23,956 nt of DNA, taken from the IMG/VR virus record IMGVR_UViG_3300030331_002589, positions 1 through 23,956 of that record; one strand, 5' to 3'. This DNA comes from a virus. Shown here in pieces: positions 18,254-23,956 of the stretch. The notes below the pieces were generated by a model that worked only from the letters and a program-made list of their open reading frames with translations, had not been told where the DNA came from and ran no database searches. The translations under genes and the position numbers were made by a program. The stretch's first letter is position 1. Each line of letters begins with the position of its first letter.

Positions 18254-18495
18254 GCCTCTCTCTCCGTGTAGTCGGAATGGTGCTTAGGCAACTTGTGCAT
18301 GCGTCTGCTCATCATGTTGTCAATCAAGACGGCGACGTTCTTGGCGGCTTTATCGAACCTGTCGCTGCTCACCTTGTCGTCGCACATGACGTCCTTGAGA
18401 CCACTCAGGTCGATGGTGTCCTGAATGAGATTCATTATCTCATACTCGCCATGCGTGATGCTGACTATCCTCTCGCTCATTCTTGCATCAATCAT
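18250..18495 (-). CDS. unknown small helical protein (81 aa)
   Basis: Predicted mostly helical by eye (EYEIMNLIQDTIDLSGLKD; DKAAKNVAVLIDNMMSRR), ending in a basic/acidic tail. No motif recognised. Coupled by ATGA overlaps on both sides, between the SANT protein and the CPKC protein. Confidence 0.65.
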   Translation of the reverse strand: MIDARMSERIVSITHGEYEIMNLIQDTIDLSGLKDVMCDDKVSSDRFDKAAKNVAVLIDNMMSRRMHKLPKHHSDYTEREA

Positions 18496-19094
18496 TCAAG
18501 CACCTTCCTGAGTTTGCCGAGTAGGACATCCAACTTCAGAATGGTGTCCTCTATGACGAGCCTCTGCTCTGCACACTTGGCCTCAATCTCCTTGTGCTTC
18601 TCAGCGAGTATCTTCGTTACACTCTCAAAATCATCCACTGGGTTGACTTTCTTTCCCCTCGGACGTTGTTTGTATGCATCATTTCTACGTTGTCTCATGA
18701 GTTGGTAAAACCTCGTATTGCATGCGGCTTTGGTCCTGCCAAGTTCCTTTGCTATCTCATCCTTCATCGAAGGATGATTGTCCTTGTGCTCCGACCACAA
18801 CGAGTATAGTTTCTCATCTTCCGTATTCGTCCATCTCTTGTGTATTCGTCCATTTTTCTTTTGTGTCCGTTTACCCACTGCCCAACGATGCCCTGATGAG
18901 CCCCTCCGCAAATTCAATTTTTCACCATGCTCGCCTCTCTTCCTCAAGGTGTCCACTCTTGCGTCTATGGAAGCAGTTGTCCTGTCCATGAATAACGCTA
19001 TGTCGTTCCTCTTTATTCCTTGAGCAAACATGTTCACAAGTTTCTCATCTTCATTCTTCGTCCATCTTTTGTTTTTATTTTTCACTCTCTTCAT
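18492..19094 (-). CDS. double SANT/Myb-like DNA-binding protein
   Basis: Two Myb/SANT-type repeats: KRWTKNEDEKLVNMFAQG... (about 9-54) and KRWTNTEDEKLYSLWSEH... (about 86-136). Each has the first-helix Trp-(T)-x2-ED-E-L pattern and a later basic helix (SIDARVDTLRKR; ACNTRFYQLMRQ). A very basic linker separates them, and the last 40 residues (158-200) form a likely coiled coil, so it may dimerise. This layout fits a sequence-specific DNA-binding regulator or nucleoid protein. Myb/SANT domains are typical of eukaryotes and of some phage and viral proteins. Start ATG 19094 (200 aa) has GGAG 8 nt upstream and follows the PC4-like gene's stop; the frame is open to 19142 inside that gene. Confidence 0.8.
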   Translation of the reverse strand: MKRVKNKNKRWTKNEDEKLVNMFAQGIKRNDIALFMDRTTASIDARVDTLRKRGEHGEKLNLRRGSSGHRWAVGKRTQKKNGRIHKRWTNTEDEKLYSLWSEHKDNHPSMKDEIAKELGRTKAACNTRFYQLMRQRRNDAYKQRPRGKKVNPVDDFESVTKILAEKHKEIEAKCAEQRLVIEDTILKLDVLLGKLRKVLE

Positions 19095-19095
19095 T

Positions 19096-19353
19096 TCATT
19101 CACTCCTTTGTTTCTGTTCCATCTCCTCTTTCGCCTTCTCAATGGCGACGTTCAACGCGTTCACGAAGTCCTCGGCCTGTTCGATGCTCAGCCGAAAACC
19201 ATGCTTCGTGTGTGTTGTTCCTTCTCTGTGCATGTTGTGTAGCCTCGCATCAATCCATATCCTCTGATAGTAATCGACTGTGCTCAGCACAACCTGCCCC
19301 TTTCCGTTCTTCCACTTTCCTTCCATGCTCGCTGTTCTCCATATCTCACTCAT
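19096..19353 (-). CDS. PC4-like ssDNA-binding protein (85 aa)
   Basis: The segment from GQVVLSTVDYYQRIWIDARL to THTKHGFRLSIEQAEDFVNALN has the PC4 (transcription coactivator p15) order: beta strands with a conserved vDiR-like strand, a loop, then KkGisLs-like KHGFRLS and an amphipathic helix. PC4-fold proteins dimerise and bind ssDNA or melted promoters. The sequence match is partial, so this is a fold-level suggestion. The start is firm: AAGGAGG 10 nt before ATG 19353. Neighbours are a SANT protein and two zinc ribbons, which suits a transcription or replication accessory role. Confidence 0.5.
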   Translation of the reverse strand: MSEIWRTASMEGKWKNGKGQVVLSTVDYYQRIWIDARLHNMHREGTTHTKHGFRLSIEQAEDFVNALNVAIEKAKEEMEQKQRSE

Positions 19354-20983: not shown

Positions 20984-21396
20984 TCCTGTTCACCTCCCAC
21001 GTGTGGCTCAGCACCGACGACCTGTGTGATGAGGTTCGCACTCCTCGCGAAAGCCAGCAGCCCCTTGATGTCGTTCTTGGCAGGGTTGATGTCGCACACC
21101 ATGCCCTCGGGATGATTCAACTCATCGCCCCTCACCATGAACTGCACGACGCCGTTCTCGTACCTCAGTATCTCAAAGGGTATGTACATCATCTCGCCTG
21201 ATGCGCCTGACTTCAACGTCGGGGTCTGCATCTTGAGCCAGTCGCTCACGCCCTTCTGACACTGCATCCTCTCAGCATAGCCGTACTTTCTGTTCATGCC
21301 CTCGCACATGGTACTCGTCACACCTTGGATGTGCATCATTCCATCGTCGTAGTTGCATTTCACTTGCATTCTGTTTTCATTCATTTGTTCACTCAT
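20980..21396 (-). CDS. unknown protein (138 aa)
   Basis: Scattered cysteines without a clear zinc pair, Met-rich, with a likely beta-rich centre (MMYIPFEILRYENGVVQFMVRG). No family recognised. Overlaps the phosphatase gene's end; GGAGGAG lies upstream of ATG 21396. Confidence 0.65.
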   Translation of the reverse strand: MSEQMNENRMQVKCNYDDGMMHIQGVTSTMCEGMNRKYGYAERMQCQKGVSDWLKMQTPTLKSGASGEMMYIPFEILRYENGVVQFMVRGDELNHPEGMVCDINPAKNDIKGLLAFARSANLITQVVGAEPHVGGEQE

Positions 21397-22495
21397 TTCT
21401 CTTCTCCTCCATAAATACCGCGTTTAGAGAGACCACTCTCTCCATGTCATCCACGACCGAGAAGGCAAGCGGATACTCCCTCTCAGTCACAGGGCAGAGG
21501 AACATGCGCTGCTCAGCGCTCTTCCCCTTCTTCCTAATCCTGTCATGTTGCCCTGCGTTGCTCATCAGACAGTATTTGCATCTCCCGTCGAACTCTATCT
21601 CAAGGGGATGCATGTCAGCCCTGCAAGAACGGCAGGTCTCCATGCCATCGTGGTCGTTCAGGTCAACCGTGAAGTGGTCATAGAACTCCTTGTCATCACG
21701 CACTGAGTTGTGCACATACACCACATCGCTCCTGTCATCGCTCATCAATGTCCAGCCGCTTGTGTTCTTGCCTTGCTTCTTCTTGCCGCCGTAGTCGCTC
21801 AACGTCTTCTTGTTGTACGACTTGGCCTTCTTGTCTTGCTTCTTCTTGTTCTTCTTGGTCGGCTTCTCATCCTCCCATTCGTCCTCCCACAAGTCCTCGT
21901 AGTCAATGCCTGATGACTTGAACGCGCTCATGTCGAACTTGGCGACTGGTGCCTCAAGGAACAACGACTCACCCATGGGTATCTCAAGCACGTCAGCGAT
22001 GTACTGCTGCTGTGACTTGCCCTCGACGGCGTGGTTGCAGTAGACGCTCCTGATGTGCGTCACGAGTTGCGATGCATCCTGCCATGTGTGCTGCTCCTTC
22101 GGTAGCATCAGATGGGCGAGTATGCACAACTGCACACCGGTCCTGCCGTGACCGCCCATGCATGAGCAAAGCACAGTCTTGATGTCATTGCTCTTGAAGT
22201 CCTCCACCAGTGCGAGCCAAAACGGTCTGCCCACATGCTGTGGTATGCCGAAGTCCGGCCAGTCGATGACGACCAACTCAGGCATGTCATCCCCCCTGAC
22301 CTTCGTGCCGCATGACCATCCTGTCGGCATGCTGTTCGTGATGTTCCTCGTTCGTATCACTCCATGTGGACCGATAGCCACATCGGGCCTCGGCTTCATG
22401 TTCTGCCATCCACCCTGACGTGTGTTGCCTCCAGCGTGGACTCTGATGCCATGTGCCTCAAACACGAGTGGGTTGCCTGTGTGACACTGTGCCAT
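21389..22495 (-). CDS. protein tyrosine/dual-specificity phosphatase with zinc ribbon tail
   Basis: The N-terminal 170 residues are a cysteine-dependent phosphatase. The P-loop is SCMGGHGRTG (nucleophile Cys112, Arg118 from ATG 22495), and the WPD loop IDWPDFGIP supplies the general acid (Asp81), about 30 residues before it as in the family. It would hydrolyse phosphotyrosine, phosphoserine or possibly an RNA 5' phosphate. A Lys/Asp-rich linker (about 200-250, with WEDEWEDEKPTKKNKKK) and a CRSC...CKYC zinc ribbon (about 285-310) follow. At 368 aa it is much longer than a bare domain. The ATG overlaps the upstream stop as TGATG. Its neighbour upstream carries a phosphohistidine domain. The substrate could be a host protein, a virion protein or that neighbour; the sequence does not say. 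Confidence 0.85.
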   Translation of the reverse strand: MAQCHTGNPLVFEAHGIRVHAGGNTRQGGWQNMKPRPDVAIGPHGVIRTRNITNSMPTGWSCGTKVRGDDMPELVVIDWPDFGIPQHVGRPFWLALVEDFKSNDIKTVLCSCMGGHGRTGVQLCILAHLMLPKEQHTWQDASQLVTHIRSVYCNHAVEGKSQQQYIADVLEIPMGESLFLEAPVAKFDMSAFKSSGIDYEDLWEDEWEDEKPTKKNKKKQDKKAKSYNKKTLSDYGGKKKQGKNTSGWTLMSDDRSDVVYVHNSVRDDKEFYDHFTVDLNDHDGMETCRSCRADMHPLEIEFDGRCKYCLMSNAGQHDRIRKKGKSAEQRMFLCPVTEREYPLAFSVVDDMERVVSLNAVFMEEKRNE

Positions 22496-23956
22496 CACTC
22501 AACACCCCCTTGCATCATCTCGTGTACCTGATTCACCCAAGCCTTGCTGTTATCGCTCATCTGCGTCAACTGCTTCTTCAGGAACTTCTTCAGCAGGTTC
22601 ATCATCGGTGTGTACACCTTGTCATCGATGTTCAGACCGTTCCATGCCTCAACGAACATCTCACCGCTCACCTCGTCGTACTTCCTCTCCTGCAACAGCC
22701 CACATACAGCGTGTGTGATTGGCAGCGAACTCTTCCTTGGTAGCGCCAAGTAGACGGACGGTGCCTCGCCAGTGAGCAACATGGTCTGATAGTCGAGACC
22801 ACCTGCATCGATGACGGACAGCATGAACATCTTCTGCTCGCATATCTCGCAATTGCTCCTGCCGCATGGGATGAAGTACTCGTCGTTGTCAGTGTACTTG
22901 TTGCTGAAGTGCAGCATGTCAGTGCTCATCTTGTCCAACTCAGCCCTGAACCCGTCAACTGGTATCCTGCCGAGGTTGTTCTGCTTCCAGTACGACGGTG
23001 CCTTTCCGGTCGCTGCGAACAAGTCAGTCCAACTCAGCGCTGGCGTCTTCCTCGCTTTGTCCTCGCCCTTGTACACCTCTCTCACCAGTTCGTATGCTCT
23101 GAACATCGAAGCAACTCCTGTCTCGCTGTGCGGGAAGTACCCCGACTTGCCTTCCTTGTTCTTCGTGGCGTAGTCAAAGGCAGTGCCGTGTAGGAACTTG
23201 TTGAACAGGCTGCCGTTGTTGTGGTGCCAGTTCTCAACCTCGTTCAACTTGGACACCAGTGACTTCAGCACATCCACGTCGCCGTTGCTGGACAGGAACT
23301 CCTCGATTTTGTCAGCCACAATCGCTGCTTCCTCGGCGCACTTCATCCAGTTCTTCCCACCGTAGCCTGACCTCCATCCGGTGTTGAAGTGGAACGCACA
23401 CCACCTCAGTGCCTTCGCCATCTGATGGTACTCAAGGTGCAGTTCATCCAACACGGCGAACCAGTGCTGTCTGTTCACCACCGACTCGGAGAGCGTGGCA
23501 GTAGGTTTGACCTCTTTGATGTTGTCAATACCCACAGCAGCGCTCAGCACAGCCATGACCTCGGGCGTCATGTCGCTCTTGACGCCTCGCATGCCGTTCC
23601 TCATCTCACCGAAGCACACGGACAACGCAGCCTTGACGACCCATCCAGCGAACATGCCACCTAGTGTGGCGGCACTCGCACCGTTCACGTTGAGTCCCTG
23701 CCATTGGTGGAAGAAGTGGCCGAACCACCCATGCTGCCTCGTGTAGCGATGCTTGGATGCAATCAGTCCTGTGTGGAACGCATTGACATATGTCTCGTGG
23801 TAGGGGTCGTATGGTCGTGGTACAATCTCCACGCCATTCTCCTCCTTGGCTACCCAAGTGGGTGAGCCCTCGACCCACACCTCGCCCACGTTGACCTCAC
23901 CAACCACATACGGTATCTCGTGCTGTCTTGCATGTGCACAGATGTGGGAGCCGAGC
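22495..23956 (-). CDS. PEP-utilising swivelling (phosphohistidine) domain plus unknown domain, 5' partial
   Basis: The frame is open to the window edge, so the N terminus is missing; a GTG at 23907 is only an internal codon on this view. Residues encoded at 23955-23899 read LGSHICAHARQHEIPYVVG, matching the PEP-utilising mobile domain G-x-x-SHAAIvARe.giPavVG. The phospho-accepting His would be codon 23946-23944. It is followed by the expected strand pair GEVNVGEVWVEGS. In PEP synthase, PPDK and rifampin phosphotransferase this domain shuttles phosphate from an ATP-grasp domain; such a domain may lie just outside the window. The following 430 or so residues match neither the PEP-binding barrel nor anything I know. 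They are helical, Trp/His-rich, and contain CGRSNCEIC, a possible metal site. Confidence 0.65.
   Translation of the reverse strand, partial: LGSHICAHARQHEIPYVVGEVNVGEVWVEGSPTWVAKEENGVEIVPRPYDPYHETYVNAFHTGLIASKHRYTRQHGWFGHFFHQWQGLNVNGASAATLGGMFAGWVVKAALSVCFGEMRNGMRGVKSDMTPEVMAVLSAAVGIDNIKEVKPTATLSESVVNRQHWFAVLDELHLEYHQMAKALRWCAFHFNTGWRSGYGGKNWMKCAEEAAIVADKIEEFLSSNGDVDVLKSLVSKLNEVENWHHNNGSLFNKFLHGTAFDYATKNKEGKSGYFPHSETGVASMFRAYELVREVYKGEDKARKTPALSWTDLFAATGKAPSYWKQNNLGRIPVDGFRAELDKMSTDMLHFSNKYTDNDEYFIPCGRSNCEICEQKMFMLSVIDAGGLDYQTMLLTGEAPSVYLALPRKSSLPITHAVCGLLQERKYDEVSGEMFVEAWNGLNIDDKVYTPMMNLLKKFLKKQLTQMSDNSKAWVNQVHEMMQGGVE

Follow-up and report, generated by a model that had tools for sequence, protein, structure and literature searches.

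Glucan water dikinase, a dikinase of the pyruvate phosphate dikinase (PPDK) family, is paired with the dual-specificity glucan phosphatases SEX4/LSF2, which act on the same substrate. The viral locus described here features a comparable pairing of a dikinase-type protein and a dual-specificity-type phosphatase, although the likeness is one of analogy only and no glucan-binding domain is seen in the viral protein. PPDK and PEP synthase (1kbl, 2r82, 2ols) share with the viral protein the order of the first two domains and the catalytic-type residues, but end in a C-terminal TIM barrel, whereas the viral protein ends in an all-helical domain, here called HNNG. Rifampin phosphotransferase (RPH; 5fbs, 5hv6) likewise combines a PPDK_N-type ATP-grasp domain and a phosphohistidine swivel domain with a third domain other than the PEP barrel. 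In RPH, however, the order is ATP-grasp, RIF-binding domain and swivel, whereas in the viral protein it is ATP-grasp, swivel and HNNG. The same three components are found in one gene block in bacteriophages (phrog_18609, phrog_20946 and the PTP phrog_17568; DLP3 gp135/139/140/141, J26, KarBoss and RcZahn). The phage block consists of four separate genes, including two PTP genes, whereas in archaeal viruses kinase and HNNG are fused and a single PTP is present.

The window, i.e., the whole stretch of DNA analysed, is a 23,956-bp viral record, a fragment whose contig ends at the upstream side of a minus-strand ORF. Among its products are two nucleases (ERCC4-type and PD-(D/E)XK), a group II chaperonin, a clamp-loader-type AAA ATPase and a family B DNA polymerase. 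This gene content, rather than a tree, is the basis of the assignment, and fits a Magrovirales-like archaeal virus; the order Magrovirales comprises viruses of marine Poseidoniales archaea (PMC10768690). The window also encodes, at 18492-19142 on the minus strand, a 216-aa protein with a Myb-like DNA-binding domain (Pfam Myb_DNA-binding, E 1.6e-9), unusual for an archaeal virus. Neither the ORF nor its phosphatase is mentioned in the Magrovirus papers checked. Pfam and PHROGs gave no significant match for the ORF, and no relative came up when viral contigs were searched directly with the window protein. The features of the ORF are the following:

22495..23955, minus strand: 5'-truncated kinase/phosphotransferase ORF, open to the window edge, with 486 aa left of the expected ~800
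23944..23946, minus strand: putative phospho-accepting His codon CAC (His 4 of the window fragment, H334 of the relative L060, aligned with H455 of PPDK)
23836..23955, minus strand: C-terminal part of the phosphohistidine swivel domain, from family alignments and the fold of L060
23146..23808, minus strand: all-helical HNNG domain, putative acceptor domain (GExR, W..YGG..W, HNNG.LFNK; phrog_20946 homology)
22840..22866, minus strand: CGxxxCxxC in the C-terminal extension, possibly binding a metal (Cys in 36/36 covering relatives)

No stop codon interrupts the frame between the ORF stop codon (22495-22497) and position 23955. An earlier note on this DNA had pointed out that the frame runs open through the window edge and that starting at the first GTG would hide an SH motif; the sequence bears this out, as the GTG at 23907 would cut off the motif in the first residues of the ORF, LGSHICAHARQHEIPYVVG. 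Homologues were sought in the 50 records behind 58 loci in viral contigs matched by the family B DNA polymerase of the window. Twenty-three were found, with identities of 31-45% over long alignments. Twenty-two of them are 681-855 aa long with an intact frame, while the other (L079) is cut by the end of its contig. Homologues are present in 11 of the 13 records of at least 80 kb, and an alignment-based scan led to 46 loci. All 23 homologous open frames pass through the point equivalent to the window edge, and 22 extend ~280-360 codons further upstream. Since the window contig ends at this edge, the missing N-terminal part is supplied by the homologues. In a set of 38 relatives, the swivel His is kept in all 36 that cover the position, preceded by Ser in 35 and by Thr in one. 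PEP-utilizers is the sole Pfam family matching more than one member (6/38, best E 0.008, below the Pfam cut-off). This recurrence and the conservation of the His argue that the SH motif is not a chance occurrence. A 1371-aa version (L128, 1533-5648) has an N-terminal extension of ~480 residues, and AH replaces SH at the swivel His.

The full-length protein was modelled with AF2 in L060, a relative of 804 aa with 45% identity, using a 38-sequence alignment (mean pLDDT 83.8). The model features an ATP-grasp domain, a swivel domain (275-375) and an all-helical C-terminal domain. The top Foldseek match in the PDB is the rifampin phosphotransferase RPH-Lm (5fbs, E 1.3e-3), followed by ATP-grasp enzymes at prob 1.00. 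VIA-align matched the model to PPDK 2dik (Z 8.7, rmsd 3.4, 181 aligned residues), RPH 5hv6 (Z 8.3) and PEP synthase 2ols (Z 8.1, covering model residues 58-370), while PPDK 2r82 covers model residues 58-350 with its residues 6-471. The alignments end at residue 261 of the model, corresponding to 341 in 1dik, and at residue 350, corresponding to 471 in 2r82. Provided that the last aligned residues are ungapped, these end points would align Q255/R257 with Q335/R337 and H334 with H455. Unrelated ATP-grasp enzymes score equally (Z 8-9 is typical), so PPDK cannot be told apart by Z alone; in the model, it is the downstream swivel and the residue pattern that mark the protein as PPDK-type. K71 (SQK), R121 (FLR.CP), E230 (ELEFV), and Q255 and R257 (LTQIR), in L060 numbering, are invariant in 34/34 sequences, and the equivalents K25, R94, E327, Q339, R341 and H455 are invariant in phage kinases. 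Thus, fold and invariant residues of L060 indicate a PPDK_N-type ATP-grasp domain, lying outside the window itself, and the ATP-grasp that the earlier note expected upstream of the swivel is encoded by the relatives. The swivelling phosphohistidine domain that it placed at the ORF start is likewise recovered, since the SH segment of the L060 model falls in the domain aligning with the swivels of PPDK and PEP synthase, and the structural alignments run through residues 350-370.

At the sequence level, the archaeal-virus ATP-grasp and swivel domains are too divergent for proof. Pfam PPDK_N matched none of the 38 members, and the family profile found nothing credible among PDB sequences. HMM-HMM comparison with phage kinases gave a single match, at the SH motif (E 1e-3, prob 20%), and none in the ATP-grasp domain, so the link between the archaeal-virus ATP-grasp and the phage kinases rests on fold and invariant residues.

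The remainder of the ORF is, as had been suspected, something other than the PEP-binding barrel. Modelled alone, window residues 41-486 (mean pLDDT 84.9) form helices, with no strand of at least 3 residues, and R162, G199, G200, H245, N246 and K253 of the HNNG domain are invariant in the family alignment. A tblastn search in phages returned two weak matches only, in Vibrio phage KarBoss (E 0.03) and Stenotrophomonas phage DLP3 (E 0.4). Both belong to phrog_20946, annotated as of unknown function. HHalign comparison of archaeal-virus and phage alignments gave a prob of 97.6 with 5 phage sequences and of 98.1 (E 1.1e-13, 125 columns of the core) with 71. The residues common to both sets are ExR, YGGxxW and HN.GxxxNK, and the phrog_20946 core reads ExRH, YGGxxW and HNNGxxFNK. 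As judged from these profiles, the HNNG domain is homologous to phrog_20946. The earlier note had thus taken the protein to be more isolated than it is, as its parts also occur in bacteriophages, each annotated separately. Searching the PDB with the helical domain produced chance-level helical matches only (peptide transporters and GPCRs; Z <=6.0, Foldseek prob <=0.15), and the fold search also found one unnamed viral model (prob 0.84, E 0.07). It is possible that HNNG represents a new fold.

The CGxxxCxxC region is an add-on, because a minimal relative of 547 aa (L131) stops shortly past the HNNG core and has no such extension. This fused kinase-HNNG protein is encoded by a 67-kb contig that is not magrovirus-like (L131, 4911-7134), is followed by a 192-aa PTP with the loop HCHHGHGRTG, and is preceded by a gene resembling, by eye, a homing endonuclease. 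Two tandem large proteins with HNNG domains (ELRH, YGG/FGGxxW, QHNT..F.K) are found in a 595-kb uncultured phage (LR756511; L137, 7269-10181 and 10196-12277). No kinase or PTP motif is seen within 8 kb of them, so that HNNG might be able to do without the kinase.

Downstream of the fused gene, the window carries the following features:

21389..22495, minus strand: PTP/DSP-type phosphatase gene (Pfam Y_phosphatase, 6.4e-06, above cut-off), its ATG overlapping the kinase stop
22142..22162, minus strand: Cys-x5-Arg phosphatase loop CMGGHGR(TG), the same loop as in phage PTPs
20980..21396, minus strand: 138-aa gene after the phosphatase, with counterparts in L093, L094 and L102

The junction between kinase and phosphatase in the window reads TGATG, and the neighbouring gene, with its Cys-x5-Arg loop, is assigned to the PTP fold. 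A PTP gene immediately follows the fused gene in all of the 45 archaeal-virus loci in which this could be tested, the commonest overlap being 4 nt. A protein of ~435-575 aa starting roughly with GWNTWxRYxxAG recurs beside the cassette, on either side, in several archaeal viruses, and was located as follows:

L093, 3275-5002: GWNTWxRYxxAG-type protein
L094, 10641-12293: GWNTWxRYxxAG-type protein
L102, 9453-10973: GWNTWxRYxxAG-type protein
L130, 8394-9701: GWNTWxRYxxAG-type protein

In bacteriophages, the cassette is found in dozens of genomes in a fixed order, i.e., a barrel-less 'PPDK' kinase, PTP1, the HNNG protein (phrog_20946) and PTP2, the annotations being 'pyruvate phosphate dikinase', 'tyrosine phosphatase' and 'hypothetical protein'. 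In several genomes it sits between the large terminase and the DNA polymerase/portal genes. Here HNNG is a protein of its own, in which polar residues are invariant. When 80 phage and prophage loci were selected by the HNNG protein alone, and counts were restricted to loci with room for the gene, the kinase was found upstream in 65/66, PTP1 in 70/74 and PTP2 in 76/78; near-duplicates among the 80 mean that these counts overstate independence. Among isolate-phage genomes with HNNG, the kinase is present in 39/39 records, a count that leaves out one 5.8-kb fragment and the 595-kb uncultured phage, and a PTP is present in 37 records. The phage protein P0003 found nothing in viral contigs as a single-sequence query, whereas an alignment query succeeded. 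No published description of the cassette was found in the literature, the coverage of which was incomplete.

We regard it as probable that the window ORF encodes the C-terminal ~60% of a phosphotransferase of the His-swivel type, which has three domains, one of them a new acceptor domain, and works with a partner phosphatase. The ATP-grasp domain would transfer phosphate from ATP to His 334 (L060), i.e., His 4 of the window fragment. As in PPDK and PEP synthase, it is probably the beta-phosphate that would be transferred, with a pyrophosphoryl intermediate. The swivel domain would then bring the phosphate to the helical HNNG domain, which would take the place of the PEP/pyruvate barrel of PPDK in the chain, and would bind and position the acceptor. 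The PTP encoded by the overlapping next gene may dephosphorylate the same product, or a protein or phosphohistidine intermediate, although kinase and phosphatase need not share one substrate. Together the two would make phosphorylation reversible or allow it to be proofread. That kinase and HNNG are fused in archaeal viruses suggests which of the phage proteins likely work together. The unknown archaeal-virus protein and the phage 'pyruvate phosphate dikinase', 'hypothetical protein' and 'tyrosine phosphatase' hence most likely belong to a single conserved viral machinery.

More tentatively, bacterial and archaeal tailed viruses may share an unrecognised system of reversible phosphotransfer. 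It would consist of a PPDK-type dikinase, the barrel of which is replaced by a new fold, HNNG, with a catalytic or acceptor role, in trans or fused, and of dedicated PTPs, and would act on a substrate with no such known chemistry (e.g., a nucleotide, a nucleic acid or a defence signal). The function is directly testable, because Vibrio, Stenotrophomonas, Rhizobium and Rhodobacter phages carrying the cassette are in culture.

The near-constant presence of adjoining PTP/DSP phosphatases would also suit a regulatory protein kinase/phosphatase pair, in which host or viral proteins bound by HNNG are phosphorylated, the PTP reverses the modification and the cell is reprogrammed; the free-standing phage HNNG, given its invariant polar residues, could itself be a phospho-carrier. 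We consider this unlikely, because the known PPDK-superfamily enzymes, with the exception of PTS enzyme I, have small molecules or glycans as their substrates, and no result obtained here indicates a protein target.

With RPH-Lm as the best Foldseek match, an ATP-grasp/swivel enzyme whose acceptor domain is other than the PEP barrel, the protein might be a phosphotransferase inactivating small molecules or antimicrobials, or it might counter defence by acting on a signal nucleotide of the host. This is quite improbable, since the swivel comes last in RPH but is followed by the helical domain in the L060 model, and no homology was found between HNNG and the rifampin-binding domain, this domain not being among the matches listed in the fold searches with the C-terminal model. 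Moreover, PADLOC gave no credible match, and the gene stays stably beside core genes, unlike the genes of a variable island. A CARF match to P0003 (PADLOC, E 0.001) was taken as chance, being weak and outside the conserved core.

Phage relatives are annotated as pyruvate phosphate dikinase, and J26 ORF98 has been modelled and docked as PPDK and read in terms of carbon metabolism (PMC12038007). Phage kinases do match PPDK_N and PEP-utilizers strongly, but their profile aligns only to PPDK residues 4-541 of 874, no PEP-utilizers_C or other barrel family is matched, and the PPDK signature CGExGG occurs in 0/62; there is little conservation in the tail past the swivel, of median length 201 aa. In the PPDK equivalog model TIGR01828, KarBoss covers positions 3-503 of 865 at about half the cut-off score. 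DLP3 alone reaches, and only just, the cut-off of a shorter NCBIfam model (NF004531, 534 positions). Because the barrel is missing, the published reading rests on two domains that are not pyruvate-specific; phage papers invoke carbon metabolism though the pyruvate-handling domain is missing. In the window protein, the all-helical prediction and the phrog_20946 homology leave no C-terminal PEP/pyruvate TIM barrel at the corresponding position. An ordinary metabolic PPDK or PEP synthase, i.e., an auxiliary metabolic gene interconverting pyruvate and PEP, is accordingly very improbable. The extreme divergence from known ATP-grasp/swivel enzymes might suggest a protein that has lost catalysis and retains the fold alone, as a scaffold or structural component, but this is more improbable still, since the residues invariant across 34-36 divergent sequences are exactly the catalytic-type ones.

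Bacillus phage G encodes a 365-aa 'pyruvate phosphate dikinase' (gp139; L135, 7881-8978) comprising only the end of the ATP-grasp domain and the swivel, and an HNNG protein was not found in this phage at the search threshold. The name 'thymidylate synthase' given to phrog_17568 is a misannotation, as members match PTP/DSP families, and it has spread into GenBank records, e.g., DLP3_141 (L086/L087, L085). In J26, the 'pyruvate decarboxylase' WYC17970 occupies the PTP2 position and probably reflects the same naming error.
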